Source of the DNA: Streptomyces sp. NBC_01244
GTDB taxonomy: Bacteria; Actinomycetota; Actinomycetes; Streptomycetales; Streptomycetaceae
Length of the DNA stretch: 64,000 nucleotides
Assembly: GCF_035987325.1 (NCBI RefSeq)
Contig: NZ_CP108488.1
Coordinates: 8,432,001 to 8,496,000, forward strand
Direction of reading: 5' to 3'
The notes below the pieces were generated by a model. That model saw nothing but the letters and a program-made list of their open reading frames with translations, did not search any database and was not told where the DNA came from. Below, piece after piece: positions 7,950 through 40,535 of this stretch. Positions within the stretch are counted from its first letter, which is position 1; every line of letters starts with the position of its first letter. The position numbers were made by a program, and so were the translations under genes.

Positions 7950-7988
7950 CTGACGGACCGCTGATGTGCCGGCTACGGCATTTTGACG
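7950..7988 (+). promoter_or_regulatory. four-box hexamer array (candidate KdpE site)
   Basis: CTGACG (7950), CTGATG (7961), GCTACG (7972) and TTGACG (7983) lie in perfect 11-bp register on the plus strand, 42 bp upstream of the minus-strand PH-like gene. Register and sequence match arrays before the kdp genes. Confidence 0.65.
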
Positions 7989-8004
7989 GGGGGGGGGGGG
8001 GGGG
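7988..8004 (+). repeat. 17-base poly-G run
   Basis: An uninterrupted run of 17 G starts at the last base of the fourth box. The true length is uncertain, since homopolymers are where this assembly seems to fail. It lies between two minus-strand genes and upstream of the PH-like gene. Confidence 0.9.
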
Positions 8005-8074
8005 ATCGCGGCGTCCCCTGCCGGTTCACTGGCCGGTGGGCCGGGGATGGCCGGGGGAGTTCCCGGGTGCGGGA

Positions 8075-9969
8075 TCAAGGGGCAGGACGAGGCCGGCGCC
8101 TTTCGGGGCGGGGCTGGACACCGGTCATCAGGACGTCGAGGCCGCGTCGTGTGGTCACCAGTACGACGCGGTCGTCATGGCGCAGGATCCGTCCGTGGGG
8201 CGGGCGCCAGTTGAAGGAGGGCCGGTCCGTGCGGAATCCACCGAGGGTGTCGGTCGAGGAGGCCGAGTGCCGGCCGGTCGTGGGGCCGACGGCGAGTACG
8301 CGCCACTCGTGCTCCTTGAAGGCCGCGTGTATCGAGCGGCCTTCGAGTTCGGGATGGCCCGCCACGTCCACGACGGTGAACAGGAGGGAGCCGCGTTCCA
8401 CCGGCATGACGCCCAGCACGTGGCGGCCCATCATCGCGGCGGCGAAGGAGGGCGCGGCCAGCGCCGAGACACTGCGGCTGCGAGTGAGTGCCTCCGGGTA
8501 TCCGGCGCGCAGGGTGCGGGAGACGGTGGCGGCGAAGTCGTCGTCGTACAGGCGCATCACCGCACGCACGCGGGGGTTGCTCTCGCGGGCGGCCATCACG
8601 ATGTCGAGGTTCCCGCCGTCGTCGTGGGTGAGACGAGCAATGATCTGCTGGTGCTTATGCGGGCGAGGTCGAGGACCCCGGGTACGGCGGCGTCTTCGAG
8701 CAGCAAGGCACGCCGAGTTCGCGTGCCAGCGCGACCCCTCGGGCCTGTGGGTCCCGCTCGATGACCACGACCGTGTGGTCGGTCGTGCACAGCTGTCCAA
8801 GGGCGCGCGTGCCGATCTTGCCGGGGCCGACCAGGGCGATGTGGTCGCGCAAGGCCGTGTCCGGTACGTGGTTGGCCGACGCGGTGCGGAAGGCCAGCGT
8901 GGCGTTCATCGCGGCGGCCACGACGAGGGGGAGCACGGCCAGGCCGACGAACCCCGCGACGAGCTGGAGGACCTGGCGGGCCGTGGACTCCTCGGTCGCC
9001 GGGTCGCCCATGGTGAGGATGTCGAGGAGGGGCAGGTACACCGACTTCCACAGAGGGCCGTCCTCCACGAGGGCCGTCACCGCGGCCAGGAGGACCACGG
9101 CCGCGCCGAGGACCCCGAAGACGGCGGTCACTTCGCGGGAGACGAAGACCCTCCAGGGCAGGTGCCCGAGCCGGTCCCGCAGCCAGCTGCGGTAGGCCCG
9201 CTGCCGCCGGGAGGAGGTCGGGTCTGGTCCGTGATGCTGGGTGACCTCTTCGAGCATGAGACGGCCGTGCGTGAACTGGCGGTGGTAGGCGGTCGCGGTA
9301 TCCGGGAGCAGCTGGGTGCCGCTCGCACCGGGGGTCTCCGCGCTGTCCCCGCCCAGCGGGTCGTCCATGTGGGTGCCGGAGAGTACGGCCGGCGTGGCCA
9401 GGTCCGTCGCGTGGGGCGGGGTCCCGGCAGGACGTACGACACCGCGGAACACCTTGCCCTCGACCTGGAGGGTGGGCCCGTGTCCGACCGCCGCCGCGGC
9501 GACCAGCTCGGGGACGGCCGTGTCGGCGTCGGAAAGGATCGTCGTGGACGCCTCGATGAAGCCGTCGTCGTATTCGAGGTGGCGGCCGCGCTCCCGGTTG
9601 AACATGCGGATGACTGAGGCGTACGTGCGGGTTGATGCTGCGGGCGAGCAGGGCCGCGGTCGTGTTCACCTGGTCGTCGCCGTACGTCAGCGCGAGCGCG
9701 GCGGCACGTTCCACACCGGCCTGCCGGAGGGCCTGCTCATCGGGCCGGGCGGAAACGAGCAGCTCTACGGGGGAGCGCGGATCGCGGTGCAGAGCGGCGA
9801 TCTCGCCGCCGTGTCCGTCGCGCCGCGAAGGCAGTACGACCGTGACGGCCTCGCCGCAGACGGCGTCGAGCTCCCGCGCGAGGCGGTGCGCGAGTCCGTC
9901 GTCACCGCAAATGATCATGTGCTCGGAGCGCTGCCCGGGTTCGGCGCGCAGATGGAGGGTCGAGGTCAT
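8075..9969 (-). CDS. CASTOR/POLLUX/TrkA-type ion channel or NAD-binding potassium protein, three frameshifts
   Basis: Three frames join into one protein of about 630 residues. It starts with EHMIICGDDGLAHRLARELD, an RCK/TrkA-N nucleotide-binding fold. In the next frame come two hydrophobic helices flanking LLDILTMGDPATEE, which fits a pore region, and then DHIALVGPGKIGTRALGQL, a second RCK fold. The last frame carries KHQQIIARLTHDDGGNLDIVMA and a C-terminal domain. The breaks are near 9615, 8703 and 8655. The last two are repaired by one added base in short C or A runs, and the first by removing one C, so assembly error is as likely as decay. Related proteins gate K+ or other cations. It lies 4 bp downstream of the kdpD copy at 9974. 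Confidence 0.7.
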
Positions 9970-9973
9970 GCGG

Positions 9974-11863
9974 TCAGGGCCGCCCCGCTGTCACCTGCGG
10001 GGCGACGGGCAGGGACAGGACCATGGTCAGTCCCCCTCCGGGGGTGTCCTCGGGCGTGAGCGTGCCGTCCATGGCCTCGGTGAGTCCCCGGGCCAGGCCG
10101 AGGCCGAGGCCGAGCCCGGCCGTGTTGTCGCGGTCGCCGAGGCGCTGGAACGGCTCGAAGGCGCGCTCGCGGTCGTCTGCGGCGATCCCGGGGCCGTGGT
10201 CGGCGATCCTGACTTCGACCCGCCCTGCCAGGGCGCTGGCCGTCACCAGCACCGGTCGGTCCGCGGGTGCGTGGCGGACGGCGTTGTCGACGAGGTTGGC
10301 CAGTACCCGTTCGAGCAGGGGCGGATCGGCCAGCAGCGCCGGTACCGCCTCCAGGTTCTGTACGTCGATGGCGGGCCCCTGCCCGGGGCTCAGGTCCAGC
10401 GAGTCCAGCGCGACGGGAAGGACCTCCTCCAGGGTGGTGGCCCGCAGATCGAGGGTGAGGGCTCCGGCTTGCAGACGGCTGAGATCGAGCAGGTTCTCCA
10501 CCAGGCGGTTCAGCCGGTTCAGGGACACCTCGGCGGAGTCCAGCAGCTCGGACCGGTCCTCTGCGGAGAATTCCACGTCAGGGTTGCGCAGGGAGCTGAC
10601 CGAGGCCAGTGCCCCTGCCAGGGGGGTCCGCAGATCGTGGCTGACGGCCCGGAGCAGGGCCGTGCGCAGGCGGTCGGCGGCCTTGATGGGCTCGACCTCG
10701 GCCGCGGCCTCGGTCAGGCGGGCCCGCTCGACGGCGGCGCCGACGTGCGCGGCGAAGGCGGCCAGGACGCGGCGCTCCGATGACGGCAGCGTACGGCCGC
10801 GCAGGACGAGGAAGGCCTCGGGGCCGGCTGCCACCACGAGGGCGGGGTCCGCTTCGCCGTGGGTGGGGCGTCCGCCTTCCGTTCCCGGTCCCGTGTCAGG
10901 GGCTTCGGCGGTCAGCTCGACGGTGTCCATGCCGAAGGTCTCCCGCGTACGTTCCAGCAGGGCCGGAATCGTCTGGCCGCCGCGGACGATGCTGCCGGCG
11001 AGGGAGGACATCGTCTCCGCCTCGGCCGTCGCGAGGGCGGAGCGGCGGGAGAGCCGCAGGGACCGGTCCGCCGCAGCGGCCACGGTGGCGGCGACGACGG
11101 CGAAGACCGCCAGCGCCAGCACGCTGTCCGGGTCGCTCATGGAGAACTCGCCGATCGGCGGCATGAACCAGTAGTTCAGCAGCAGCGCGGCGGTGAGCGC
11201 CGCGATCAGGGCCGAGACCACCCCGCCGATGCAGGCCACGCCGACGACGGCCACGAGGAACAGCAGCGCCTCGCTGGTGAGGTTCAGGGTGCCGCGCATG
11301 CGGTCGAGGACGAGAGTGAGCAGTACGGGGAGCAGCAGAGCGGCCACCGGTCCGGCGACGAGCCGTGACGTGGGGAGCGTACGGCGGCGGGAGGGCAGCG
11401 GCCGGCCGTGGCCCGCCCGCTCGTGCGTGACCATGTGGACGTCGATGTCCTCCGACAGCGCCACCACGGTCTCGCCGATGCCCCGGCCGGTGAGGAAACG
11501 TTCCAGCCGACGGCGACGGCTCGTACCGAGGACCAGTTGGGTGGCGTTCTCCAGGCCGCCGCGGTACTCGTGTCCGGCGCGGGGGATGCTCTCCAGTCCG
11601 TCGAGCTTCGCCTCGGTGTGCCGGCGCCGGTGGCACTCGACGAAGCCGGCCACCACGTCCGAACCGCGGGCCGCCCGGCGGTGGGCCTCGTCGAGCATCC
11701 GGTAGGTCTTGCCGACGCCGGGGGCGGCCCCGAGGAAGACCTTGAGTCTTCCGGGGCGGGCGACGGGCGGCCGTCCCGCCTCCGTGTCCGTACCCGTCTC
11801 CGTACCCGTCTCCGTACCCGTACCCGTCGCCGCTTCCGGGCCGGGGGCGTGCGTGGTCGCCAT
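9974..11863 (-). CDS. kdpD: KdpD-like sensor kinase with internal in-frame deletion
   Basis: 629 residues against 847 for the full kdpD at 18376. Walker A (LGAAPGVGKTYRML) is intact. After AGHEYRG the sequence jumps to ATQLVLGTSRRRRLERFL, in the second half of the universal-stress domain, so about 220 residues are lost without breaking the frame, including the Walker B stretch. Four membrane helices (about residues 165-270), a GAF domain, the phosphoacceptor box AVSHDLRTPLAG, the N box NLVDNAVRHAP and glycine boxes all remain, so kinase activity is plausible. Residues 13-29 are a GTETG repeat encoded by tandem repeats at 11783-11830. It follows the kdpF remnant by 2 nt; kdpABC are absent. Confidence 0.85.
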   Translation of the reverse strand: MATTHAPGPEAATGTGTETGTETGTDTEAGRPPVARPGRLKVFLGAAPGVGKTYRMLDEAHRRAARGSDVVAGFVECHRRRHTEAKLDGLESIPRAGHEYRGGLENATQLVLGTSRRRRLERFLTGRGIGETVVALSEDIDVHMVTHERAGHGRPLPSRRRTLPTSRLVAGPVAALLLPVLLTLVLDRMRGTLNLTSEALLFLVAVVGVACIGGVVSALIAALTAALLLNYWFMPPIGEFSMSDPDSVLALAVFAVVAATVAAAADRSLRLSRRSALATAEAETMSSLAGSIVRGGQTIPALLERTRETFGMDTVELTAEAPDTGPGTEGGRPTHGEADPALVVAAGPEAFLVLRGRTLPSSERRVLAAFAAHVGAAVERARLTEAAAEVEPIKAADRLRTALLRAVSHDLRTPLAGALASVSSLRNPDVEFSAEDRSELLDSAEVSLNRLNRLVENLLDLSRLQAGALTLDLRATTLEEVLPVALDSLDLSPGQGPAIDVQNLEAVPALLADPPLLERVLANLVDNAVRHAPADRPVLVTASALAGRVEVRIADHGPGIAADDRERAFEPFQRLGDRDNTAGLGLGLGLARGLTEAMDGTLTPEDTPGGGLTMVLSLPVAPQVTAGRP

Positions 11864-12025: not shown

Positions 12026-12075
12026 CTGACGCGCTCCTGACGGCCCTCGGCCGGGACTTTTACGGGGCGTTGACG
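12026..12075 (+). promoter_or_regulatory. hexamer-box array between kdpF remnant and antiporter
   Basis: CTGACG at 12026 and 12037, TTTACG at 12059 and TTGACG at 12070 all lie on one 11-bp register (0, 11, 33, 44). The array is 71 bp from the divergent kdpF start and 91 bp from the antiporter start, so it could serve either or both. Confidence 0.6.
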
Positions 12076-12165: not shown

Positions 12166-13728
12166 ATGCGCAGCGTCGGTACGGTCTTGTCCCTCGTGGT
12201 ACTGGCCACGGTCGTGGCCACAGGGGCGCGGCGCTGGCGAATTCCCGCGCCCTCACTGCTCGTTGTCGCCGGCCTCGTCGTCGCCCTGATACCGGGTACT
12301 CCGGAGATCCAGGTCAGTCCCGAACTGATCGGTCTCGTCGTTCTCCCGCCCCTGCTGTACGCGAGCGCCGAGGAACTGTCCTGGCGCGAACTGCGCCTGG
12401 TGTGGAAGCCGGTCAGCGTGCTCGCGGTCGGTCTGGTCCTGGCCTCGGCCGCCGCGGTCGGGGCGGTGGCATCACTGCTCACTCCGCTGACCTGGCAGAT
12501 GGCGCTGGTCCTGGGGGCCATCCTCGCGAGTACGGACCCGGTGGCCGTCACCGCACTCGGCCGTCGGCTCGCCCTGCCGCCCCGCGTCCAGGTCCTCGTA
12601 CAGGCCGAGAGCCTCTTCAACGACGCCACGTCGCTCGTGCTCTTCCGGGTCGCGGTCGTCGTCGCGGCGGCCTCCGCCGGGGTGTCCTGGCAGGCGGCGG
12701 GGACCGAGTTCGCACTGCTCGCCGGCGGCGGCGTCCTGATCGGGGGAGCGGTCGCGGGGGTGGTGGCGCTGATCCGGCGCAGGACCGAGGACCCCGTACT
12801 GGAGACCGTCATCGCCCTGGTGACGCCGTACGCCGCCTACGTGCTGGCCGAGGCGGTGCACGCGTCCGGTGTGACCTCCGTCGTGGTGGCGGGCGTGGTG
12901 CTCGGCGGCCGGGCCGACCGGTTCACCAATGCCCCCATCCGGATCCAGCTGCACGCGGTCAACGGCACCGTGGTCTTCCTGCTGGAGAGCGTCGTCTTCA
13001 GCCTGATCGGCCTCACCCTGCCCGGGCAGGTCGCCGCGCTCGGCGACGGCGACCGGCTCTGGCCCCTGTACGCCCTGGTGGTCGCCGTGACACTGATCGC
13101 CGTAGGCCTGCTGTGGGTCCTGCCGCTCTCGGCCGTCGTCCAGCGGAGCGCGGGCGCACGGCCCTCCTGGCGGATCCCGGCCGTACTGACCTGGGCGGGC
13201 ACGCGGGGGGTCGTCCCCCTGGCCGCGGCCCTCTCCATTCCCGTCGTGGCGGACGACGGCAGTCTGCTCGGTCAGCGCCCGCTCGTGCTCGTACTGACCA
13301 CGTCCGTGGTGGTGGTCACCCTGATCGCCCAGGGCTTCACCCTGGCCGACGTGGTCCGCCGCTCCGGAATCGCCCTCGAACCCGACCACACGGAGCGCGA
13401 GGAGGCCTCCGCCCGGTGCAGCCTCGCCGCCGCCGGCATCCGGCGGCTCGACGAGATGTCCGACCTCGAAGCCGTACCGGACGTCGTGGCCGACCGGCTC
13501 CGGCGCAGCCTGCAAGCCCGGCTGGAGCACGCCCGCGACCGCCTGGAGGAAGCCGACCTGGCCGAGTCCGCGGACCACGTCTACCGGCTGCTGCGCCGCG
13601 ACCTGATCCGGGTGGAGGCCGTCGAACTGCAACGCCTCTACGACGAACACCGCATCAGCGACACCACCCGCCGCCGGCTCCAGCGCACCCTGGACCTGGA
13701 GGAGGCGCGACTGGACCTGGCGACCTGA
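12166..13728 (+). CDS. CPA1-family Na+(K+)/H+ antiporter
   Basis: A 520-residue transporter. About 12 hydrophobic segments fill residues 1-400, and the last 120 residues are charged and helical, probably a cytoplasmic regulatory tail. The family ion-site motifs are present: ASTDPVAVTAL near residue 125 and ESLFNDATSLVLF near residue 150. Proteins of this kind exchange Na+ or K+ for protons and handle pH and salt stress. The ATG at 12166 has a G-rich stretch (GGGTGGGGG) just upstream. Divergent from the kdpF remnant across the box array, which suggests shared control with potassium uptake. Confidence 0.85.
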   Translation: MRSVGTVLSLVVLATVVATGARRWRIPAPSLLVVAGLVVALIPGTPEIQVSPELIGLVVLPPLLYASAEELSWRELRLVWKPVSVLAVGLVLASAAAVGAVASLLTPLTWQMALVLGAILASTDPVAVTALGRRLALPPRVQVLVQAESLFNDATSLVLFRVAVVVAAASAGVSWQAAGTEFALLAGGGVLIGGAVAGVVALIRRRTEDPVLETVIALVTPYAAYVLAEAVHASGVTSVVVAGVVLGGRADRFTNAPIRIQLHAVNGTVVFLLESVVFSLIGLTLPGQVAALGDGDRLWPLYALVVAVTLIAVGLLWVLPLSAVVQRSAGARPSWRIPAVLTWAGTRGVVPLAAALSIPVVADDGSLLGQRPLVLVLTTSVVVVTLIAQGFTLADVVRRSGIALEPDHTEREEASARCSLAAAGIRRLDEMSDLEAVPDVVADRLRRSLQARLEHARDRLEEADLAESADHVYRLLRRDLIRVEAVELQRLYDEHRISDTTRRRLQRTLDLEEARLDLAT

Positions 13729-14722: not shown

Positions 14723-14806
14723 TCAGCGCACCGGCGGGTGAGCGGCGTGCGAGGCCGGGCGCACCGTATGCGGTGGCCGGTCGTCGTGGCGCAGACCGCT
14801 GTTCAC
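14723..14806 (-). CDS. short leader ORF, copy A of a four-copy family
   Basis: A 27-codon frame starting at GTG 14806 with the N-terminus MNSGLRHDDRPPHTV. Related frames occur at 17791 (MNSGPRYDDRPPNPV) and 39489 (MNIGQRHDDRPPHPV), with a diverged one at 40414. A GGATGG stretch precedes each start. The nearest 11-bp-register box lies about 53 nt upstream, as in copies B and D. Substitutions between copies are not concentrated at third codon positions, so the conserved unit might be a DNA or RNA element rather than a peptide. Confidence 0.4.
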   Translation of the reverse strand: MNSGLRHDDRPPHTVRPASHAAHPPVR

Positions 14807-14858
14807 GTCGCCCATCCAACTGCCTTGCGAGGCCGTACTCAAGGAGGTCGGCCCGTCC

Positions 14859-14959
14859 TTGACACGACTCTGATGCGGGCGGGCCGGCAGGGTTCGGGAC
14901 TGGCGGGCCACACATGCTTCGCTGGGCATCAGCGGTGCGTCGCGTCAGAAGGGTGTCAA
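14859..14959. promoter_or_regulatory. inverted hexamer-box element A
   Basis: Plus-strand TTGACA (14859) and CTGATG (14870) are 11 bp apart. Facing them on the other strand are boxes read on plus as CATCAG (14927), CGTCAG (14943) and TGTCAA (14954), the last two again 11 bp apart. The element lies between the minus-strand leader ORF/GNAT gene and the plus-strand response regulator at 15075, so it could control both. Confidence 0.6.
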
Positions 14960-15074
14960 GGTCACGGCCGCCGGCGTATGGACGTCGTCAACGCCTGCCG
15001 TGGCGCACGGAATCCGCTGTTTTCTGGTGGTCGCATGTCCATGGGGGACGTAACGACAGGAAGGTGGCACGCCG

Positions 15075-15761
15075 ATGGCCCGGGTGCTGGTGGTGGACGA
15101 CGAACCGCGGCTCGCGCGGATGCTGGTCATCAATCTGAAGGCCCGCACCTACGAGGTGGACTGCGCGCACGACGGGCGCGCGGCCCTGGACTCCGTGGCG
15201 GCCCGCCGTCCGGACGCGGTCCTGCTCGACCTCGGGCTGCCCGACATGGACGGGATCGAGGTGCTCAAGCATCTGCGCGGATGGTCCCAGGTGCCCGTCC
15301 TGGTGGTGTCCGCCCGCCACGACTCCGAGGAGAAGATCCAGGCCCTCGACGCGGGCGCCGACGACTACATCACCAAGCCCTTCAGTATGGACGAGCTGAT
15401 GGCCAGGGTGGCAGCCGTCGTACGCCGCACGCCGGCACACGTCGCCGCCACCGCGAATGAAGCGGTCGTGGAGACCGAGGAGTTCACCGTCGATCTGCTC
15501 GCTAAGAAGGCCAGACGCGGCGGGGTGAACATCAGGCTCACGCCGACGGAATGGCACCTGCTGGAGGTCCTGATCCGAAATCGGGGCAAGCTCGTCAGCC
15601 AGCGACGGCTGCTCCAGGAGGTGTGGGGATCCTCGTACGGAACGCAGACCAACTACCTGCGGGTGTACATGGCCCACCTCCGGCGGAAGCTGGAAGCGGA
15701 CCCGTCGCACCCGCGCCATCTGATCACCGCCCCCGGTATGGGGTACCGCTTCGAGGCATGA
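15075..15761 (+). CDS. kdpE: KdpE-like response regulator (second copy)
   Basis: A 228-residue OmpR/PhoB-family regulator: receiver domain (residues 1-120) with the phosphoacceptor in VLLDLGLPDMDGIEV and the conserved lysine in ITKPFSMDELMA, then a winged helix ending in NYLRVYMAHLRRKLEADP. It is very close in sequence and length to the KdpE at 20963. No kinase gene is adjacent; the nearest are the deleted kdpD at 9974 and the full kdpD at 18376, either of which could phosphorylate it. The ATG at 15075 is preceded by GGAAGG. Its 3' end overlaps the convergent GNAT copy by 38 bp. Confidence 0.85.
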   Translation: MARVLVVDDEPRLARMLVINLKARTYEVDCAHDGRAALDSVAARRPDAVLLDLGLPDMDGIEVLKHLRGWSQVPVLVVSARHDSEEKIQALDAGADDYITKPFSMDELMARVAAVVRRTPAHVAATANEAVVETEEFTVDLLAKKARRGGVNIRLTPTEWHLLEVLIRNRGKLVSQRRLLQEVWGSSYGTQTNYLRVYMAHLRRKLEADPSHPRHLITAPGMGYRFEA

Positions 15762-16728: not shown

Positions 16729-17553
16729 TCAGGCGGTGTGGCCGACGAGGAGGTCGGCGAGCTTGTTGAGGCGCTTGATGGTGCGGTCCTCGGTGGCGGC
16801 GGCGGCCGGGGCGACGCGCTCGGAGCGGTCGTAGTAGGCGCCGTTGACGATCTCGGTGGCCGGGTCGCAGAGCCGCACGACGTGCTCGGCGCCCTCGGCG
16901 GCCGGTGCGCCCTCGTGTCCGTAGAGGGGCAGCAGGCCGGTGTCGCACACGCCGGGGTTCACGGAGACGGCGGTGACGCGCGGGTCGGCGGCGAAGACGG
17001 TCAGGGCCAGCTGAGACTGGGCGTACGCGGCGAGGCGGGAGTAACGCCGCACCCGCTGCGGGTCGTTCCACTGGATGGCGCCCGAACGGTGCAGCGCGGA
17101 CGAGACGTTGACGACGCGCCCGCCGGGGTTGCTGGTGAGGGCGGGCTCCAGGAGGTTGGTGAGGAGGTAGTGGGCAAGGAAGTTGACCTGGAAGGAGATC
17201 TCGTTGCCGTCGGCCGTGAGCGTGTGGCGCTCCGGCGCCGCGATGGCCGCGTTGTTGACGAGTACGTCCAGGCGCGGGTACTCCCGTACGACGGCGTGCG
17301 CGAGGTTCTCGACCTCCTCCAGGCGGGCGAAGTCGGCCGCGAGCGGCCGCAGTAGAGCGTCGGAGATGCCCGCGGAGGCGATCAGCCGGTCGGTGGCGGC
17401 CCGGGCCTCCTCGGGGGTGCGGCCGTGGATGAGGACGGTGGCGCCGAGCTCGGCGAGCCGGTGGGCGGTCTCGTATCCGATGCCGGAGGTGGCTCCCGTG
17501 ACGAGGACGGTACGTCCGGTCAGCGACGGGGAAGGGGGCAGGGATGAGTGCAT
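16729..17553 (-). CDS. short-chain dehydrogenase/reductase-like protein (copy 1)
   Basis: A 274-residue SDR with the cofactor motif TGATSGIG near residue 20 and the NNAA motif (LVNNAAIAAPE). The catalytic region reads AAYAQSQLAL, so the usual Tyr-x-x-x-Lys has Gln in place of Lys, which could cripple or alter catalysis. The serine region is NVSSALH. It resembles retinol-dehydrogenase/WWOX-like SDRs. The ATG at 17553 follows AGGAA. It is followed by the bL37-like gene and preceded by leader ORF B with its box element. A truncated second copy lies at 39618-40229. Confidence 0.8.
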   Translation of the reverse strand: MHSSLPPSPSLTGRTVLVTGATSGIGYETAHRLAELGATVLIHGRTPEEARAATDRLIASAGISDALLRPLAADFARLEEVENLAHAVVREYPRLDVLVNNAAIAAPERHTLTADGNEISFQVNFLAHYLLTNLLEPALTSNPGGRVVNVSSALHRSGAIQWNDPQRVRRYSRLAAYAQSQLALTVFAADPRVTAVSVNPGVCDTGLLPLYGHEGAPAAEGAEHVVRLCDPATEIVNGAYYDRSERVAPAAAATEDRTIKRLNKLADLLVGHTA

Positions 17554-17710: not shown

Positions 17711-17791
17711 TCAGACGGCCGAGCGGACAGCGGGCGCCGTCGGCCGCACCGGATTCGGTGGCCGATCGTCGTAGCGCGGACCGCTGTTCAT
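17711..17791 (-). CDS. short leader ORF, copy B
   Basis: A 26-codon frame from ATG 17791 beginning MNSGPRYDDRPPNPV, related to copies at 14806 and 39489. The nearest register box (17843) starts 52 nt upstream, the same spacing as in copy D. A -10-like TTCAGGATC lies between box and start. A short hairpin (GCCCC...GGGGC, about 17590-17612) stands between this frame and the SDR gene it precedes. Confidence 0.4.
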   Translation of the reverse strand: MNSGPRYDDRPPNPVRPTAPAVRSAV

Positions 17792-17842: not shown

Positions 17843-17946
17843 TTGACGGCCTTCTGATGGCCGTCGGGCGAGGGGGTGAGTCCGGCCTTCGCGCAGGTCA
17901 TCAGGGCCGCGTCAAAGACGCCGGGCGTGCGGAAAGAACCCGTCAA
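17843..17946. promoter_or_regulatory. inverted hexamer-box element B
   Basis: Plus-strand TTGACG (17843) and CTGATG (17854) face CATCAG (17899) and CGTCAA (17910) in inverted orientation, with each pair 11 bp apart. A further CGTCAA lies at 17941. The same order with the same 31-bp step to the last box recurs in element D at 40466. The element is upstream of leader ORF B and the SDR gene. Confidence 0.65.
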
Positions 17947-22515: not shown

Positions 22516-24617
<2,102 letters not shown>

Positions 24618-24621
<4 letters not shown>

Positions 24622-27498: not shown

Positions 27499-27570
27499 TT
27501 GACGCACCTCATACGAATCTCCGGCCCCGGCGTAAGGAGTGCGTGAAGAGTGGGGCGGCGGCCGTATGGA
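27499..27570. promoter_or_regulatory. inverted hexamer-box element and promoter of kimA-like gene
   Basis: TTGACG (27499) and CATACG (27510) are followed by inverted CGTAAG (27531) and CGTGAA (27542): starts at 0, 11, 32, 43. A -10-like TATGGA lies at 27565, 17 bp past the last box. The element separates the divergent DUF4118 gene and kimA-like gene. Confidence 0.65.
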
Positions 27571-27647
27571 TCGCGCCAAGAGCACTGGTCATCCGGCCGC
27601 GCGGTCCGGACGCTGTCCTCACTTTGTCCAACGGAGGAACAAGCGAG

Positions 27648-29537: not shown

Positions 29538-29576
29538 TTGACGCATCCCTGACGGATGCTTGACGCAGCTCGTGCG
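29538..29576 (+). promoter_or_regulatory. hexamer-box array upstream of kdpB2
   Basis: TTGACG (29538), CTGACG (29549), TTGACG (29560) and the weaker CGTGCG (29571) are in exact 11-bp register, starting 7 bp after the kimA stop. A separate promoter for the second kdpB is therefore likely. Confidence 0.65.
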
Positions 29577-29653
29577 CCGCCGTCAAGACGGCGCCAATTC
29601 CTCTGCGTACACGGGGGATAGCTCGACATCGGGCGGTAGTTTCCTGCTTGTTG

Positions 29654-29764
29654 CGCCGCCGGGGGCCTCGATCACTCACATGACGGCCGAGGGGGTCCAT
29701 GGAGTGGTCCCCGGCGGCGACACCCTCTCTCACGCACCCCTGCCCGGCTTGTCGGGCAGGGGTG
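29654..29764 (+). promoter_or_regulatory. structured 5' leader of kdpB2 (candidate riboswitch or attenuator)
   Basis: An 11-bp perfect long-range stem (CGCCGCCGGGG 29654-29664 with CCCCGGCGGCG 29709-29719) closes a domain containing a CCTCG/CGAGG hairpin and a GGGG..CCCC element. Just downstream a 12-bp perfect hairpin (CACCCCTGCCCG with CGGGCAGGGGTG, 29735-29764) sits 35 nt before the start codon and could be the expression platform. No match to the conserved parts of the ydaO c-di-AMP riboswitch or M-box was found by eye. Confidence 0.5.
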
Positions 29765-29799
29765 TCTTGCCGAAGCCGAACTCACCAGAAGGTCCTTTC

Positions 29800-31953
29800 A
29801 TGGCTCCCGCCGCCTCCGCGCAGCACGTTCCTCCGGGTCTCGGAACCCCTCCCAGGGCTCCGCTCAACCGGCCGTCCCGGAAACGGGCCGGGCAGGCGAA
29901 CATGCTGGAGCCCGAACTCCTCGCCGCCTCGGCCCGGGAGGCCTTCGCCAAGCTCCACCCGCGCGAACTGGTGAAGAAGCCGGTGCTGTTCGTCGTCGCG
30001 GTCGGATCGGTCCTGACCACGCTCTCGGCGCTCGTCCACCCGTCCGTGTTCACCTGGGTGATCAGCGTCTGGCTGTGGCTGACAGTCCTGTTCGCCAACC
30101 TCGCCGAGGCCGTCGCCGAAGGCCGCGGACGGGCTCAGGCCGAGTCGCTGCGCAAGGCGCGTACGGACACGGTCGCGCTGCGGCTGGACCACTGGACGTA
30201 CGGGGCGAACCTGCGGCACGCCGAGACCGAGGCGGTCGCGCCGGCCGAGCTCCAGCCCTTCGACTTCGTCCTCGTCGAAGCGGGGGAGCTGGTGCCTGCC
30301 GACGGGGACGTCGTCGACGGGGCGGCGATGGTGGACGAGTCGGCCGTCACCGGCGAATCGGCTCCCGTACTAAGGGAGTCGGGCGGCGACCGGACCGGTG
30401 TCACGGGCGGTACGACCGTCCTGTCGGACGCGATCGTCGTACGGGTCACCTCGCGCCCCGGGAACAGCTTCATCGACCGCATGATCGCCCTGGTCGAGGG
30501 CGCCACCCGGCAGAAGACCCCGAACGAGATCGCCCTGAACATCCTGCTGGCCGCCCTGACCGTCATCTTCATCCTGATCGTGGTCACCATCCAGCCGATG
30601 GCCGCGTACGCGGGCGCCGCCCAGTCCACGACCGTCCTGGTCGCCCTCCTCGTCACCCTCATCCCCACCACCATCGGCGCCCTGCTCTCCGCGATCGGCA
30701 TCGCGGGCATGGACCGGCTCGTCCAGCGCAACGTCATCGCGATGAGCGGCCGCGCGGTTGAGGCGGCCGGCGACATCAACACGCTCCTCCTCGACAAGAC
30801 CGGCACCATCACCCTCGGCAACCGCGAGGCCGCGGCCTTCATACCGCTCCCCGGCGTGGACCACATCAAGGTCGCGGACGCCGCCCAGCTGTCCTCCCTC
30901 GCCGACGAGACCCCCGAGGGCAGGTCGGTCGTCATCCTCGCCCGGCAGTACGGGCTGGAGCCGGCGGCCGTGGAGGACCTGAGCAACCCCCGGTTCACCG
31001 AGTTCAGCGCCCGCACCCGGATGAGCGGCCTGAACCTGAGCTGGGCCAACGGCGCCGGCTGCGCCATCCGCAAGGGCGCCGTGACGCAGGTCTGCGAGTG
31101 GGTGGTGGCACGCGGCGGGACCGTACCCGCGGAAGCCGCCACGTGGTCGGCCGCCGTGTCCGAATCCGGCGGCACGCCCCTGCTGGTGGCGGTCCACGAC
31201 TGGGACGGCCCCCGGGTGCTCGGGATCATCCACCTCAAGGACGTGGTCAAGGAGGGCATCCGGGAGCGGTTCGCGGAGCTGCGCGCCATGGGGATCCGTA
31301 CGGTCATGGTGACGGGGGACAACGAGCTGACGGCCCGGGCCATCGCGGCCGAGGCAGGTGTCGACGAGTACCTCGCGGAGGCCACCCCCGAGGACAAGTT
31401 GGCGCTCATCAAGCGGGAGCAGGAGGGCGGCAAGCTCGTCGCGATGACGGGCGACGGCACCAACGACGCGCCGGCCCTCGCGCAGGCGGACGTGGGCGTG
31501 GCGATGAACACGGGCACCTCGGCCGCCAAGGAGGCCGGGAACATGGTGGACCTGGACTCCAACCCCACCAAGCTCGTCGAAATCGTGGAGATCGGCAAGC
31601 AACTCCTGATCACCCGAGGCGCTCTGACCACTTTCTCGATCACGAACGACGTCGCGAAGTACTTCGCGATCATCCCGGCCATGTTCGCCGCGGCCTACCC
31701 GGGTCTCGGCGCGCTCAACATCATGGGCTTGACCAGCCCCACCTCCGCGATCACCTCGGCGATCATCTTCAACGCCCTGATCATCGTCGCCCTCATCCCG
31801 CTCGCCTTGCGCGGAGTCCGCTACCGCCCCGCCTCCGCGCACGACCTGCTGCGCCGCAACCTCGGTGTGTACGGCCTCGGCGGTCTGATCCTGCCCTTCG
31901 TCGGCATCAAGCTCATCGACCTGCTGGTGTCCACGATTCCCGGCCTCGGCTGA
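29800..31953 (+). CDS. kdpB: second KdpB-like P-type ATPase subunit without KdpA/KdpC
   Basis: 717 residues, closely like the operon KdpB. It retains [29 protein letters not shown] and [21 protein letters not shown], so it should hydrolyse ATP. It differs in the N-terminal 45 residues, in an insertion [19 protein letters not shown] before the actuator domain, and in the nucleotide-binding domain. No kdpA, kdpC or kdpF flanks it. It may replace KdpB in the main complex under some condition or act with an unknown partner. The ATG at 29800 has AAGG upstream. A box array and a structured leader precede it. Confidence 0.85.
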
Positions 31954-32024: not shown

Positions 32025-32041
32025 TGTTAAGGACACGTCAG
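32025..32041 (-). promoter_or_regulatory. two-box hexamer site upstream of second permease
   Basis: Read on the minus strand, CTGACG (32041-32036) and TTAACA (32030-32025) have starts 11 bp apart. Further degenerate boxes may continue toward 32063. It is the weakest of the series but lies in the correct place, about 100 bp before the permease start. Confidence 0.4.
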
Positions 32042-32141
32042 GATTGTCTCAGCTGCGTGCATAAGTGATCAGTCTGCGTACGCTGGCTCCGCTGTCGATG
32101 TCGATGGCTGATTCTTTGCCGTACGACAGGAGCCCACCACG

Positions 32142-34079
32142 ATGGCCACCCCTGCCCGCACGTCGCGCCTGCGGGCGTGGATGCTGGAAGGCTTGACCGC
32201 CGAGAACAGTTCGCCCGCCGCCAAGGAGGCGGCGGCCCAGCCGCACGGCCGTCCCTGGTGGCGGGTCATGTGCCTGACGGGTCTCGACTACTTCTCCACC
32301 CTCGGCTACCAGCCCGGCATCGCGGCGCTGGCGGCCGGACTGCTGTCGCCGCTGGCGACCATCGTGCTCGTGCTCCTCACCCTCTTCGGCGCGCTGCCGG
32401 TCTACCGGCGGGTCGCGGAGGAGAGCCCGCACGGCGAGGGCTCGATCGCCATGCTGGAGCGGCTCCTGACGTTCTGGAAGGGGAAGCTGTTCGTCCTGAC
32501 CCTGCTCGGGTTCGCGGCGACCGACTTCCTCATCACCATCACCCTCTCCGCCGCCGACGCCACCGCGCACCTGGTGGAGAATCCGCACCTCACCAGCACC
32601 CTCCACGGGCACGAGGTCCTGATCACCCTGATCATGATCGCGCTGCTCGGGGCCGTCTTCCTCAAGGGGTTCAGCGAGGCCATCGGCGTCGCCGTGGTCC
32701 TGGTGGCCGTCTACCTCGGTCTGAACGTCGTGGTCGTGGCCGTCGGGCTGTGGAACGTGATGACCGAACCGCACGTCATCACCGACTGGACGACCGCGCT
32801 GACCACCGAGCACGGCAACCCGTTCATGATGATCGCCATCGCCCTCATCGTGTTCCCGAAGCTCGCGCTCGGCCTCTCCGGCTTCGAGACCGGCGTTGCG
32901 GTCATGCCGCACGTCAAGGGCGACCCCGAGGACACCCAGGCCAACCCGGCCGGCCGGATCCGTGGTGCCAAGAAGCTGCTCACGACCGCGGCCATCATCA
33001 TGAGCGTCTTCCTGATCTGCTCCAGCTTCATCACCACGCTCCTGATCCCCGCAGACCAGTTCAAGCCAGGCGGCGAGGCGAACGGCCGCGCCCTCGCCTA
33101 CCTCGCCCACGAGTATCTGGGCTCCGCCTTCGGCACGGTCTACGACATCTCCACGATCATGATCCTGTGGTTCGCGGGCTCTTCGGCCATGGCGGGCCTG
33201 CTCAATCTGATGCCGCGCTACCTGCCCCGCTACGGCATGGCCCCGCACTGGGCCCGCGCCCTGCGCCCGATGGTCATCGTGTTCACGCTGATCGCGTTCC
33301 TGGTCACCTGGATCTTCAACGCCGACGTCGACGCGCAGGGCGGCGCGTACGCCACCGGCGTCCTCGTCCTGATCACCTCGGCCGCCGTCGCCGTGACCAT
33401 TGCCGCCCGCCGGGCCGGCGAGCGCGGCTGGACCATCGGCTTCGGGATCATCTCGGCCGTCTTCATCTACACCACGGCCGTGAACGTCGTAGAGCGCCCG
33501 GACGGCGTGAAGATCGGCGCCTGCTTCATCGCCGGCATCATGGCCCTCTCCCTCCTCTCCCGGCTCGCGCGCGTCTTCGAACTGCGCGTTACGGACGTGG
33601 AGCTCGACGACATGGCGCAGCGCTTCATCCGCGACACGTCCAACCGCACGATCCGCTTCATCGCGAACGAGCCCGACAACCGTGACCTCGACGAGTACCG
33701 GCAGAAGAAGGAACAGATCCGCGCGGACAACGACATCCCGCCCGGCGACGACGTCATGTTCGTCGAAGTCACGGTCCTGGACGCGTCCGAGTTCGAATCC
33801 GGGATGAGGGTGCGGGGCGAGGTGCTCCACGGCCGCTACCGGGTTCTGACCCTGGAGAGCTCCAGCATCCCCAACGCCCTGGCGGCTTTCCTGCTCCACG
33901 TACGAGACGAGACCGGCCAGCGCCCCCACATCTACTTCGAGTGGACCGAGGGCAACCCGATGGCCAACTTCCTGCGGTTCTTCCTCTTCGGCCAGGGCGA
34001 AGTCGCCCCCGTCACCCGCGAGGTCATCCGCGAGGCCGAACCCGACCGCGCTCGCCGCCCCCACGTCCACGCCGGCTGA
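32142..34079 (+). CDS. APC-superfamily permease, candidate second K+ transporter
   Basis: 645 residues: about 12 membrane helices (residues 40-470) and a 170-residue soluble C-terminus. The first-helix motif [14 protein letters not shown] resembles the break motif in KimA and KUP proteins (compare LDAMASVAYGPESI in the neighbour). [19 protein letters not shown] is typical of amino-acid/K+ APC carriers. The family in Streptomyces is usually annotated only as APC permease. Its place behind kdpB2 and a KdpE-like site supports a role in K+ or osmolyte uptake; amino-acid transport is the alternative. The ATG at 32142 follows CAGGAG. Confidence 0.7.
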
Positions 34080-34343: not shown

Positions 34344-35678
34344 TCAGCCGCCGATGTCCCGGCTGCGGAAGTCCTCCAGCGTCTCGCGGCGGACGAGGAG
34401 GCGGGCCGTCCCCTCGTGGACCGAGACGACCGCCGGGCGGCCGACGAGGTTGTAGCCGGAGGCCATGGACAGCTGGTAGGCGCCGGCCACCGGTACGGCG
34501 AGCAGATCGCCGGGGTGGATGTCGCCGGGCAGTTCCACGGCCTCCGCGAGGATGTCCCCGGCCTCGCAGTGCCGGCCGACGACCGTCGTCGTACGCGGGT
34601 GGGCCGTCGAGTGGCGGCCGATGAGGCGGGGCGCGTAGCGCACCCCGTACAGGGCGGGCCTCGGGTTGTCGCTCATGCCTCCGTCGACGGCGACGAAGAC
34701 CTTCTCGCCGGTGTGCTTCACGGCGAGCACCCGGTACAGGGCGACCCCGGCCGGCCCGACGACGGCCCGCCCGGGCTCGATGAGCAGCCGGGGCACGGTC
34801 AGCCCGGCGGCGGCGCAGCCCGCGACGAGCTCCGCACGCAGCCGTCGGGCCAGCGCGGTGAGGTCGAGGGTGGCTTCGCCGGGCCGGTAGGCGATGCCGT
34901 GACCGCCGCCCATGTCCAGTTCCGGCAGTTCAGTGCCGTGCATGTCGCGGACGCGGGCCATCAGCCCCACCATCCGGCGCAGGGCCACCAGGTAGGGCTT
35001 CACCTCGGTGATCTGCGAGCCGATGTGGCAGTGCAGGCCGGTCAGTTCGAGTTGTGGCTGGCCCAAGATCCGCGTGATCGCGTGCTGCGCGCCCCCATCG
35101 GTGAGGGAGAGACCGAACTTCTGGCCGTCCGTGCCGGTGCGGATCTTGTCGTGGCCGCCGGCCGAGACGCCCGGTACCACTCGGACCATGACCTTCTGGC
35201 GGCCCTCGAGCCCCACGGCGGCCGCGATCCGGGCGATCTCGGAGGGGCTGTCGATGACGATCCGCCCCACCCCGAGCCGCATCGCGGCCTCGATGTCCCG
35301 GGGCGACTTGGCGTTGCCGTGCAGCACGATGCGCTCGGGAGGGAACCCGGCGGTGACGGCGAGCTCCAACTCGCCCGCCGAGCAGACGTCGAGCCCGAGC
35401 CCCTCCTCGTCGACCCAGCGCACCATGGCACGGGACAGGAACGCCTTGGCGGCGTACAGCACATGGGCGTCGGGGAAGGCGTCCCGGTAGGTCCGGCAGC
35501 GTCCACGGACCTCGGCCTCGTCCAGTACGTAGGCCGGGGTCTCGAAGCGCTCGGCGATCTCGGCGAGGGACACTCCGCCGACGGCCAGGCCGCCGTGCGG
35601 GAGCGGGGCCGTGGACGCGGGCCAGATGGACAGTTCGCCGGTGCCGGCCGGTATGCCGGGGAGAACGGTGATGGTCAT
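34344..35678 (-). CDS. diaminopimelate decarboxylase-like PLP enzyme
   Basis: 444-residue fold-III PLP decarboxylase. The PLP lysine is in VLYAAKAFLS, the phosphate/glycine loop in LDMGGGHGIAYRPGE, and HCHIGSQI and GRHCEAGD match the meso-DAP decarboxylase pattern (family CESGD). It would convert meso-diaminopimelate to lysine, or act on a related amino acid such as ornithine or a siderophore precursor. It is probably not the housekeeping lysA, since it is coupled (13 bp) to a small gene of unknown function and lies under a potassium-type box array. The ATG at 35678 is used. Confidence 0.75.
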   Translation of the reverse strand: MTITVLPGIPAGTGELSIWPASTAPLPHGGLAVGGVSLAEIAERFETPAYVLDEAEVRGRCRTYRDAFPDAHVLYAAKAFLSRAMVRWVDEEGLGLDVCSAGELELAVTAGFPPERIVLHGNAKSPRDIEAAMRLGVGRIVIDSPSEIARIAAAVGLEGRQKVMVRVVPGVSAGGHDKIRTGTDGQKFGLSLTDGGAQHAITRILGQPQLELTGLHCHIGSQITEVKPYLVALRRMVGLMARVRDMHGTELPELDMGGGHGIAYRPGEATLDLTALARRLRAELVAGCAAAGLTVPRLLIEPGRAVVGPAGVALYRVLAVKHTGEKVFVAVDGGMSDNPRPALYGVRYAPRLIGRHSTAHPRTTTVVGRHCEAGDILAEAVELPGDIHPGDLLAVPVAGAYQLSMASGYNLVGRPAVVSVHEGTARLLVRRETLEDFRSRDIGG

Positions 35679-35691: not shown

Positions 35692-36054
35692 TCACGCGGT
35701 CCGGGCGGTGGTCTCGGGTGCCTGCGGAAGCGGTGCCCCGACCGGGCCGGCGGTGGCTTCCTCAGCCACCGGGGGTGCGGTGAGGGTCGGGTCGACGGTC
35801 AGCAGACGGACTCCGAGGGGCTCGGCCATCGCGCGGAGCGCGGTTTCGGAGAGGCGGATCCAGGAATGGGCCGTACCGAGCGTGGCGGCCAGCCGTTCAG
35901 GGCTGGTGAAGCCGACAGCCGTGCGCGTTCCCAGCGGGGTGCGGAACAGCCGCACCACCTGGTGTGCTCCTCCCGACCGGGCGGGCACGTACAGGGGCCC
36001 GGCCGGGATCCGTTCTTCAGGCTCGGCGTCGTCGGCGTACTGGAACAAACACAT
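35692..36054 (-). CDS. SAV_915-like small protein upstream of lysA-like gene
   Basis: 120 residues starting MCLFQYADDAEPEERIPAGP; the ATG at 36054 has GGGAGGG at good spacing. The central part (VRLFRTPLGTRTAVGFTSPERLAATLG, split here as VRLFRTPLGTRTAVGF and TSPERLAATLG) matches the small SAV_915/SseB-like domain of unknown function in actinomycetes. A proline/alanine-rich tail follows. It forms an operon with the decarboxylase and carries the box array 111 bp upstream. Confidence 0.6.
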   Translation of the reverse strand: MCLFQYADDAEPEERIPAGPLYVPARSGGAHQVVRLFRTPLGTRTAVGFTSPERLAATLGTAHSWIRLSETALRAMAEPLGVRLLTVDPTLTAPPVAEEATAGPVGAPLPQAPETTARTA

Positions 36055-36164
36055 GGGGCCCTCCCTGAGGAACCACGAGTGGCAGGTGGCGCCCCGGCTG
36101 CGGGGAGGCGGTCCGGGACGCGTCATCGAACGTATCCCCGCACCTATCCGCCTGTGATCACCCC

Positions 36165-36213
36165 GTAACGGGTCCCATACGGCGCCCGGCCGACTCCTTA
36201 CGGATCATTGACG
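36165..36213 (+). promoter_or_regulatory. four-box hexamer array upstream of the lysA-like operon
   Basis: GTAACG (36165), CATACG (36176), CTTACG (36197) and TTGACG (36208): starts 0, 11, 32, 43, identical to the kdp operon array. A GATAGG -10-like hexamer lies 16 bp from the nearest box on the gene side. Confidence 0.65.
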
Positions 36214-38660: not shown

Positions 38661-39415
38661 CTCCTCCACGTACCTGGCTGGGTGGATGCTCCTGGACCTG
38701 ACCGGGAGGAAGCCGAGGCCGCCCGCTGGGGCATGACGGGATCGCCGACGGTCCTGCTCGACGGCCTCGACCCGTTCGCGGTGGCCGGCGCCCCGGCGAG
38801 CGTGTCCTGCCGCCTCTACCGGGACGAGGACGGCCGCGCGGACGGGGCCCCGAGCGTGCAGGCCCTTCGCCAGGCGCTGGCCGGTGCGATTCCCGCCTCG
38901 GCGGCAGGGGGACGGAGTGCTGCGAGGGGGATCTGCTGGACCCGATCGGCCGGGCCGGCCGTGGCCGACGTGCCCCGACTGGGCGCGGTCTGCGCGCCGT
39001 TCACCAGGCGGTACTGCGGTCCTTCGCCACCGATGGCACGGCTCCCGAGGTCGCCGCACTGGAACCCGTAGCCGCTCTCGCGGGCAGGGCCGCGGCTGAG
39101 GTGCTCGCCGAACTGGACCGCGAGGACTTCCTGACCCTCGACGAAGCGGGGCGGATCCGGGCGGCGTACCCCTTCTCGGCGTTCGAGACCCCGCACCGGA
39201 TCCGGCTGGCGAACGGGGTACGGGTGTGGTCGATGTGTGCCATCGACGCCCTGGGCGTCTCCGCCATGCTCGATGGCCAGGACGCACGGATCTCCTCCTG
39301 CGACCCGGTCAACGGCGAGCCGGTGACCGTCACTTTCGCCGACGGGGCCACGCTGTGGGAGCCGGAGGACGCGGTCGTGTTCATCGGCCGCCGCCAAGGC
39401 GGCCGCCCAGGGTGA
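38661..39415 (+). pseudogene. MerB-like organomercurial lyase-related gene, broken
   Basis: The first frame has GMTGSPTVLLDGLDPFAVAG and CRLYRDEDGRADGAPSVQAL, a thioredoxin-like N-part. A second frame from about 38920 gives ECCEGDLLDPIG when one G is restored, then LDREDFLTLDEAGRIRAAYP and WSMCAIDALGVSAML, typical of MerB/alkylmercury lyase relatives. The true N-terminus is missing and the C-terminus stops at 39415, where box element C begins, so the gene is truncated on both sides. It may have belonged to the neighbouring metal cassette. Confidence 0.65.
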
Positions 39416-39419
39416 AGTC

Positions 39420-39447
39420 CGTCAAAGGCCCGTCAGAAGGACATCAG
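39420..39447 (-). promoter_or_regulatory. three-box hexamer array, element C
   Basis: CGTCAA (39420), CGTCAG (39431) and CATCAG (39442) on plus are TTGACG, CTGACG and CTGATG on minus, in exact 11-bp steps. The element starts 5 bp after the stop of the broken MerB-like gene and precedes leader ORF C, which starts 42 bp past the last box. Confidence 0.6.
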
Positions 39448-39488
39448 GGCTCTTGAGCCGACGAACGAGGCCCAGTTGGATGGACGAC

Positions 39489-39581
39489 GTGAACATCGGT
39501 CAGCGCCACGACGACCGGCCACCGCATCCGGTGCCGCCGGTGCAGCGTCCTGTTCACCTTCCGGTGCGCCACACCCGTTGA
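39489..39581 (+). CDS. short leader ORF, copy C
   Basis: 30 codons from GTG 39489, N-terminus MNIGQRHDDRPPHPV; an in-frame ATG lies 9 nt upstream. It belongs to the same family as copies at 14806 and 17791 but is on the opposite strand and lies at the junction with the truncated SDR copy rather than ahead of an intact gene. Confidence 0.35.
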   Translation: MNIGQRHDDRPPHPVPPVQRPVHLPVRHTR

Positions 39582-39617
39582 TTCCCGGCTCACCCCCTTG
39601 GGCGGCGCCCGTCGCGA

Positions 39618-40229
39618 TCACCCCGCACCGCGGGACGTGCCGACGCCCCCACGCGATACCCAACGACCCTTCACCGCAGGGCGGCTTCCCGCACAGGGCC
39701 GCCGCCGTGCCCTTCCACTGGCGGCGAGGCGGGCGTAACGGCGCAGCCGCTGCGGGTCGTTCCACATGATCGTGACGGTGCGGTGGAGCGAGGAGGAGAC
39801 GTTGACGACGCGGCCGCCCTGGTCGGTGGTGAGCGCGGGCTCGAGCAGGTTCGTCAGCAGGTAGTGGGCGAGGAAGTTGACCTGGAAGGCGATCTCGTTG
39901 CCGTCGGCCGTAAGGGTGTGGCGCGCGGGCGCCGAGATGGCCGCGTTGTTGACGAGTACGTCGAGGCGCGGGTGCTCGCGTACGACCGCGTAGGCCAGGC
40001 TCTCGACCTCGTCGAGGTGGGCGAAATCGGCGGCGAACGGCCGCAGGGACGAGTCGTTGATGCCGGCAGTGGTGATCAGCCGGTCGGCCGCGGCCTGCGC
40101 CTCATCGGGGGTGCGGCCGTGCAGGAGGACGGTGGCGCCACGCTCGGCGAGCTTGCGGGCGGTCTCGTAGCCGATGCCGGAGGTGGCTCCGGTGACGAGA
40201 ACGGTACGTCCGGACAGGGAAGAAGGCAT
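39618..40229 (-). pseudogene. truncated second copy of the SDR gene
   Basis: From ATG 40229 (AGGAA upstream) it matches the SDR at 16729 closely: LSGRTVLVTGATSGIGYETA, LVNNAAISAPARHTLTADGN and WNDPQRLRRYARLAA. Homology stops at about 39720, just before the catalytic tyrosine, and the frame runs on into unrelated sequence. It therefore lacks the active site and last 90 residues. It is the product of a segmental duplication that also carried the upstream box element and hairpin. Confidence 0.8.
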
Positions 40230-40411
40230 GTCGGATTCCTGGAAACGGGGCATGGCCGACCTGCCTGTCGCCCCGACGGGACGCGGGGGTACGGGTTCAG
40301 CTCATGCGGAGATGGTGAGGATGCGTACGGTGCCCCGAACACGCCCTTCAGGCGGGCGGTGGCGGGAACGCGGACGACCCGCGGCCGGTCGGCGTAGCGC
40401 GGAACGCTGTT

Positions 40412-40535
40412 CATGAACCCATCCCAGCGCATCCGACCTGCGGGGACAGGATTCTGAACGCGCCCTTGACGCCTCTTTGGCCCGCGCCATCAGGGGTGCG
40501 TCAAGATCGATCGCTGCGCGGAAGGAAGGCGTCAA
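40412..40535. promoter_or_regulatory. box element D with degenerate leader ORF
   Basis: TTGACG (40466), TTGGCC (40477), CATCAG (40488) and CGTCAA (40499) share an 11-bp register; another CGTCAA lies at 40530. A minus-strand frame from ATG 40414 begins MNSVPRYADRPR, a diverged relative of the leader ORFs, 52 nt from the nearest box. It faces the truncated SDR copy and mirrors element B in layout. Confidence 0.55.

Follow-up and report, generated by a model that had tools for sequence, protein, structure and literature searches.

Direct-repeat boxes with an 11-bp step, resembling KdpE sites, precede a set of potassium genes in a Streptomyces genome

KdpE is the textbook example of a switch for one operon. 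For Escherichia coli only one target is listed, and the site at kdpFABC there consists of two 6-bp direct repeats, TTTATA-N5-TTTACA, in which the first two T are invariant (PMC3264566). A 22-bp minimal KdpE site at the kdpF promoter (PkdpF) of Mycobacterium smegmatis was defined by footprinting and electrophoretic mobility shift assays, and that report sees no noticeable similarity between this site and other KdpE motifs (PMC5401905). In several pathogens, a broader adaptive role has been ascribed to KdpDE (PMC3610689). For Streptomyces, a 2023 review states that KdpDE is unanalysed in any model species and that none of the nine putative potassium transporters of S. venezuelae has been studied experimentally (PMC10117811), and our search of the open-access literature recognised no Streptomyces KdpE site or regulon. 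MtrA, an OmpR-family regulator, recognises (G/T)T(G/A)ACC-N5-GT(G/T)AC in S. coelicolor (PMC5650626). Here we describe arrays of direct-repeat boxes in a 64,000-bp stretch of the 10.0-Mb genome of Streptomyces sp. NBC_01244 (contig NZ_CP108488.1, 8432001-8496000; 70.6% GC; hereafter the window), where they lie upstream of the kdp operon and of many other genes in an island of 33.5 kb (7.5-41 kb). These arrays are very probably the binding sites of KdpE-type response regulators that control a potassium gene set, a prediction from sequence that we regard as well supported.

The unit of the arrays, the box, is a 17-bp direct repeat of two hexameric half-sites, frequently doubled at 31-33 bp, or about three helical turns. 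With up to one mismatch, YTKAYG-N5-YTKAYG matches the window 26 times, whereas 100 dinucleotide shuffles averaged 4.2 matches and never exceeded 11. Among same-strand spacings of up to 70 bp, the 11-bp step stands out, with 11 exact pairs where 200 simulations gave a mean of 0.16 and a maximum of 2; smaller groups at 21-22, 31-33 and 42-44 bp (six each) correspond to two, three and four turns. A preliminary description of this DNA had placed 11-bp pairs of YTKAYG in eleven intergenic regions. Seven of the eleven hold exact pairs and three more (14859/14943, 26548 and 27499) hold pairs with one mismatch, but the region at 32025 is weak. Aligning 18 pairs from these regions gave YY-YTKACG-NNNYY-CTKAYG, with T2 and A4 of the first half-site invariant (18/18 each) and the second half-site carrying T in 15/18 and A in 18/18; units departing from YTKAYG include CATACG, TTAACG, TTCACG, GTAACG, TTGACA and TTTCCG. 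The layout said to be shared at 26548, 27499 and 36165, with starts at 0, 11, 32 and 43 and the second pair inverted at 27499, proved exact, and a two-pair layout at 31-33 bp recurs at 12026/12059, 14943/14975, 17899/17930, 40488/40519 and 29549/29581.

The double box in front of the kdp operon is conserved across Streptomyces. In the window it consists of 17-mers at 26548 and 26580 (26548-26596, plus strand; 32 bp apart) upstream of the minus-strand operon kdpF-kdpA-kdpB-kdpC-kdpE-kdpD, whose kdpA is 95% identical to kdpA of named Streptomyces records. For comparison we used the best 80 of 575 confirmed kdp stretches. We trained a matrix on the arrays of the window, leaving out its own kdp array. 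In 80/80 loci this matrix detected one or more sites at score 13 in the 600 bp ahead of kdpA, and it detected none in the 1,200 bp of kdpA coding sequence that served as a control in each locus. On the strand opposite to kdpF, with a score of at least 8 per site and spacings of 31, 32 or 33 bp allowed, all 80 promoters have two sites exactly 32 bp apart, and some carry further sites on either strand. The box columns of the kdpF alignment reach 2.7 bits; the 40 columns preceding the distal box carry 0-0.2 bits and those between the boxes 0.1-0.5. Downstream of the proximal box, columns are conserved in places, among them a GtTT-N-CTC element about 28 bp beyond the box that may belong to the core promoter.

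Matrix scans place the boxes mostly outside coding sequence and largely inside the island. Across the 80 loci, the window-trained matrix matched 259 times in 228 kb of non-coding DNA versus 52 times in 1,127 kb of coding DNA. A second matrix, built solely from the 80 kdpF promoters, found 15 sites at a score of at least 15 in the island (13 without the kdp array), none in the rest of the window and one in a 400-kb background of twenty 20-kb stretches across the chromosome; at score 13 the counts were 18, 1 and 2. By both scans, then, the spaced hexamers are not equally frequent in coding or background DNA but far rarer there. The preliminary description had noticed no arrays past 41 kb; with the kdp-trained matrix this holds at a score of at least 15. 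A one-mismatch match to the hexamer pattern lies at 42621, and at a score of at least 13 the matrix finds one site (1714) in the 30.5 kb on either side of the island.

Beyond the window, a second kdp locus (5.11 Mb, 3.3 Mb away; kdpA and its upstream region were covered) carries the double box, at positions -318 and -286 relative to kdpA, and a kdpDE locus at about 7.02 Mb has a weaker site of 16.0 bits before kdpD. A sequence-only model built from 40 sites and run genome-wide returned seven matches, five in the island and the other two at 5.1167 Mb, in the second kdp locus. With E-values of 0.22-8 no single match is significant, and the weight of the result lies in the placing of all seven; the first pass scored 150 of 5,070 candidates, so additional sites may be missed. 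The exact pattern matched the genome 30 times (11 in the window, 19 outside), against 12 for a reversed control, which outside the window is only a modest excess. Several of the outside matches fall within coding sequence or beside genes with no known potassium role, and we treat most of the 19 as chance. In a phylum sample of 119 genomes, KdpA was found at E <= 1e-50 in 16 genomes, our own included; among 16 kdpA loci outside our own genome, 11 have a site at a score of at least 14 within 450 bp, and five carry a pair of sites, each scoring at least 10, at a distance of exactly 32 bp. At one of these five, of 46% GC, where the chance level is higher (L146), the 32-bp pair sits on the other strand.

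The boxes follow particular gene families. In the 80 loci, a box lies within 450 bp upstream of 21/22 copies of kdpB2, an orphan paralogue of kdpB, versus 0/82 for canonical kdpB and 0/78 for kdpC (the kdpB and kdpB2 counts rest on tblastn, since GC3 gene calls set antisense open reading frames (ORFs) over kdpB). The corresponding counts are 10/11 for a short-chain dehydrogenase (SDR) gene, 10/13 for a second permease, 21/27 for kimA2, which encodes a KimA-like permease, and 6/11 for a stand-alone DUF4118 gene; among genes with no homologue in the window, 36/452 have a box no more than 400 bp away. Matches in coding controls were zero for kdpB, SDR, permease, DUF4118 and kdpD. We also examined a genus set of 101 Streptomyces genomes, taking the 30 best loci per query with our own genome included, so that this sample leans to close orthologues. 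Upstream boxes were present in 25/30 permease and 26/30 kimA2 loci, and in 5/8 antiporter orthologues (two of the eight partial) versus 0/22 antiporter paralogues; the coding control gave 0/120. For lysA2, a second diaminopimelate-decarboxylase gene, a small gene intervenes, and the search was therefore widened to 900 bp at score 13: a box was found in 28/28 copies, each with a site of at least 16, a count that excludes two loci with short flanks and has no length-matched coding control. At 500 bp and score 14 the figure is 11/30.

The presence of KdpE was also compared with that of KdpA and the second permease across genomes. KdpE is present in 99/101 Streptomyces genomes (E <= 1e-75) and KdpA in 88/101 (E <= 1e-100). 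The two KdpE-less genomes (G134, G160) also have neither KdpA nor the second permease, and in the three genomes that lack KdpA but retain the permease (G023, G143, G194), KdpE is present and the permease gene is preceded by a box (L161, L174, L184). The preliminary description had proposed a regulon much wider than Kdp. The tracking of gene families by the boxes speaks for this, but the confirmed sites lie mostly in the island, at the 5.11-Mb kdp locus and probably at the 7.02-Mb kdpDE locus.

The form of the sites points to KdpE. Upstream of kdpF we find 6-bp direct repeats with a 5-bp spacer, as in a KdpE site. On the other strand, the M. smegmatis site reads TTGATG-N5-TTTACG, with the same half-sites at the same 11-bp step and likewise upstream of kdpF; it scores 22.1 bits by the Streptomyces kdp matrix, a value that 200,000 random rearrangements of the same letters never reached. 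Read in this orientation, it does resemble other KdpE motifs.

Against kdpE1, the three KdpE-like regulators of the genome reach 100, 73 and 67%, and the next ones among 78 matches to KdpE at most 44%. kdpE1 (20963-21652, minus strand) is the response regulator gene of the kdp operon, with the order kdpA-B-C-E-D; kdpE2 (15075-15761, plus strand; 67% to kdpE1) has no adjoining full kdpD; kdpE3 stands beside a kdpD. A receiver domain and an OmpR-type winged helix are present in kdpE1 and kdpE2, the two scanned with Pfam. All three paralogues have the recognition region NYLRVYMA(Q/H)LRRKLEADPSHPR in common, and in alignments all three match the E. coli KdpE contact residues R193, R200 and T215; R200 and T215 also occur in the five next-closest regulators, none of which has an arginine equivalent to R193. 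KdpE is the best NCBIfam model for each of the three. The earlier proposal that KdpE and/or its paralogue binds the arrays agrees with the sites, residues and families, except that the kdpE genes number three rather than two, and all three paralogues may bind the same boxes.

The boxes could instead belong to another OmpR/PhoB-family regulator with an 11-bp spacing, such as MtrA, and stand near kdp through osmotic-stress sensing. The genome has many related regulators (the 78 matches to KdpE), and the MtrA site shares with our boxes direct repeats of about 6 bp, a 5-bp spacer and a similar first half-site (PMC5650626). Its second half-site, however, starts with G, and the target genes named in that report are others. 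The boxes described here have C or T in this position: G occurs in 1/80 distal and 0/80 proximal kdpF sites and in 0/18 window pairs. Together with the fit of the mycobacterial KdpE site to the box and the missing R193 equivalent in the five next-closest regulators, this makes another family member quite unlikely as the binder.

It is very improbable that TTGACG is the -35 element of one sigma regulon. TTGACG is close to the housekeeping -35 consensus. The M. smegmatis kdp operon is reported to have a SigF-like promoter (PMC5401905). A -35 element would not be expected to recur two to four times in a promoter, in steps of 11 and 32 bp, however; in all 80 relatives a search of the strand opposite to that of kdpF detected the double box there, and the separate GtTT-N-CTC element lies downstream of the proximal box. 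Least probable of all is one repeat spread by recent duplications within the island without regulatory meaning: by eye, the 17.8-kb and 40.4-kb SDR/leader regions do look alike, but the columns ahead of the distal kdpF box and between the two boxes carry at most 0.2 and 0.5 bits, the same double box stands at the second kdp locus and boxes occur in loci of other genera.

KdpE remains the likely binder. One KdpE dimer would occupy each 17-bp direct repeat, with its two half-sites 11 bp apart, and at doubled sites two dimers would share one face of the DNA, given that 31-33 bp is about three helical turns. Under potassium limitation, KdpD would be expected to phosphorylate KdpE, and phosphorylated KdpE would activate kdpFABC-kdpED, the second kdp locus, kimA2, orphan kdpB2 and the second permease, and further the antiporter, kdpE2, the lysA-like operon and operons with short leader ORFs. 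That the effect would be activation is taken by analogy from KdpE of M. smegmatis and E. coli.

Several observations weigh against this model. According to unpublished data cited in the review PMC10117811, S. venezuelae needs KdpDE neither to develop nor to grow in 0.5 M NaCl or KCl; low potassium is not among the conditions named in that statement. In the 80 loci, only 20/51 kdpD copies and 3/53 kdpE copies have a box, and two of the three boxed kdpE copies are divergent and kdpE2-like; low counts are expected for genes inside operons, which is not proof. Coding controls in the same loci gave matches for kdpB2 (1), kimA2 (1), kdpC (1) and kdpE (3). Outside kdpF, the orientation of the box relative to the gene varies. 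Sites within 530 bp downstream were found in the genus set for the permease (10), lysA2 (5), the antiporter (3) and kimA2 (12), of 30 loci each, and are presumably the boxes of neighbouring genes. Five of the 16 phylum-sample kdpA loci have no site at score 14, although two of these five match KdpA only partially, and at a laxer score of 9-10 the coding control matched in 6/16. Finally, the three paralogues reach 249, 253 and 242 bits with the NCBIfam KdpE model NF007820, below its cut-off of 325 bits, and are therefore not filed in that equivalog, while their domains, gene neighbourhood and contact residues favour a KdpE-like function.

The minus-strand kdp operon in the window comprises kdpA (24618-26282), kdpB (22516-24600, start approximate), kdpC (21777-22493), kdpE1 and the sensor kinase gene kdpD (18376-20919). 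Between its double box and a KdpF-like ORF runs a hydrophobic ORF of 27 codons (VADLAFVVTT..., from 26458 leftwards, minus strand), which was also found in further kdpF promoters of the alignment. Two other pieces of the window are KdpD-like: 5898-7373 corresponds to the KdpD N-terminal part plus DUF4118, with no kinase match, and 9974-11863 to a short KdpD-like kinase. On the other side of the double box lies the stand-alone DUF4118 gene, which is KdpD sensor-like (26618-27370, minus strand), and between it and kimA2, the KimA-like APC permease gene (27543-29531, plus strand), is an array with boxes at 27499 (plus), 27531 and 27563 (both minus; 27499-27579). kdpB2 (29560-31953, plus strand) has pairs at 29538 and 29549 (plus) and 29581 (minus), an array (29538-29597) that overlaps its listed start. 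The listed starts of kimA2 and kdpB2 both overlap boxes, and the true starts are therefore probably downstream. The kdpB2 product is 67% identical to that of kdpB over 714 columns by BLASTP (69% in an alignment) and keeps the DKTGT and TGES motifs; no KdpA or KdpC was found among the scanned neighbours of kdpB2, and the genome has two KdpA matches.

The second permease (32142-34079, plus strand) is weakly similar to a KimA-like permease and is preceded by a weak or decayed box (32025-32052, minus strand). Its overlapping 17-mers at 32025 and 32036 score 8.9 and 13.9, both below 14, and the window's own copy is one of the five permease loci (of 30) without an upstream box; the 17-mer at 32025 differs from two relatives (L156, L157) at two bases, one in the spacer and one in the second half-site. 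Split remains of a homologue of this permease (L040, 8103-9741) lie downstream of boxes near the 7.02-Mb kdpDE locus. A group of sites near 7.22 Mb (L041) was not taken as a target: by eye, its stretch, boxes included, resembles the sequence behind a methyltransferase gene in L040, and an integrase-like gene (L041, 7477-9150) adjoins it.

Further along, lysA2 (34344-35678; assigned by NCBIfam) and the gene at 35692-36126, both on the minus strand, lie downstream of a double box at 36165 and 36197 (36165-36213, plus strand). To the left of the kdp operon, a double box at 14943 and 14975 (14943-14991, minus strand) precedes kdpE2, and one at 12026 and 12059 (12026-12075, plus strand; 33 bp) sits between a kdpF remnant with a kdpD-like gene (minus strand) and the gene for a CPA1-type Na+/H+ antiporter (12166-13728, plus strand). 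The single box at 7950-7966 (plus strand) is upstream of 7351-7908 (minus strand), a family with no assigned function; the kdp-trained matrix missed this box at a score of at least 11, and a box is found ahead of the gene in 7/7 relatives within the 80 loci.

The remaining arrays precede short leader ORFs. Four of these in the window have an R(H/Y)DDRPP-type sequence in common: one of 30 aa (14723-14815, minus strand; RHDDRPP), behind a single box at 14859-14875 (plus strand); one of 26 aa (17711-17791, minus strand; RYDDRPP), followed by the SDR gene (16729-17553, minus strand) and preceded by boxes at 17843 (plus), 17899 and 17930 (both minus; 17843-17946); one of 33 aa (39480-39581, plus strand; RHDDRPP), behind a triple-unit array (39420-39447, minus strand) of which the kdp-trained matrix recovered a single unit, 39431 (13.8); and a degenerate fourth at 40414 that, with a second SDR gene (SDR2, minus strand), follows boxes at 40455 and 40466 (plus, weak), 40488 and 40519 (minus; 40455-40535). 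A short MerB-like (alkylmercury lyase) gene at 39101-39415, with NCBIfam matches below cut-offs, adjoins an array.

Searching the 101 genomes with one leader ORF gave 18 matches, with 14 genomes matched at E <= 0.05. After inspection we classed 13 of the 18 as family members, three of them from our own genome; the other five are weak and have no box, and one (L284) holds a broken-off RHDDRP string. In 13/13 copies, 58-61 bp separate the start of the box from the position that aligns with the first codon of the query (the Met itself differs in some); ten copies are followed by an SDR gene and two by an acetyltransferase-like gene. A regular-expression scan of the collected loci for the leader motif gave 28 matches, 17 of them near a box (11 distinct peptides), the others appearing unrelated. 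An RNA-structure check of 12 of the 13 leaders found only a stem inside the ORF, with 16 pairs, 3 of them with a double change. Riboswitch control, including by c-di-AMP (ydaO), was rejected, with 0 Rfam matches of any family at gathering score in the window, as was a tRNA link, for which nothing was found. The leader ORFs might add a further layer to the potassium regulon, at the level of translation, which we consider unlikely. KdpE would turn on the leader transcript at low potassium, and the passage of ribosomes through the Asp- and Pro-rich peptide, perhaps ion-dependent, would decide expression of the SDR or acetyltransferase gene. The magnesium leader MgtL offers a likeness to such a layer, and our literature search on leader peptides found nothing on the RHDDRPP family.

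If the model is right, the boxes are a target list for KdpDE that includes the two kdp loci, KimA2, the orphan KdpB, the permease and the antiporter, as well as non-transport genes such as lysA2, and they suggest that one switch may govern a gene set here rather than a single operon as in E. coli. The half-sites have the same 5-bp spacer as in E. coli, and the first half-site of the Streptomyces kdpF boxes opens with T-T in 80/80, as it does there; the Streptomyces boxes differ in their GC-rich half-sites (TTGACG, CWTACG), in often forming two sites 32 bp apart and in standing before several operons. For M. smegmatis a single mapped site and a single operon are described (PMC5401905), whereas in Streptomyces the sites are often doubled and stand before many genes. 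The E. coli and mycobacterial KdpE sites, the latter thought by its describers to be unlike the others, would thereby be united in one box.

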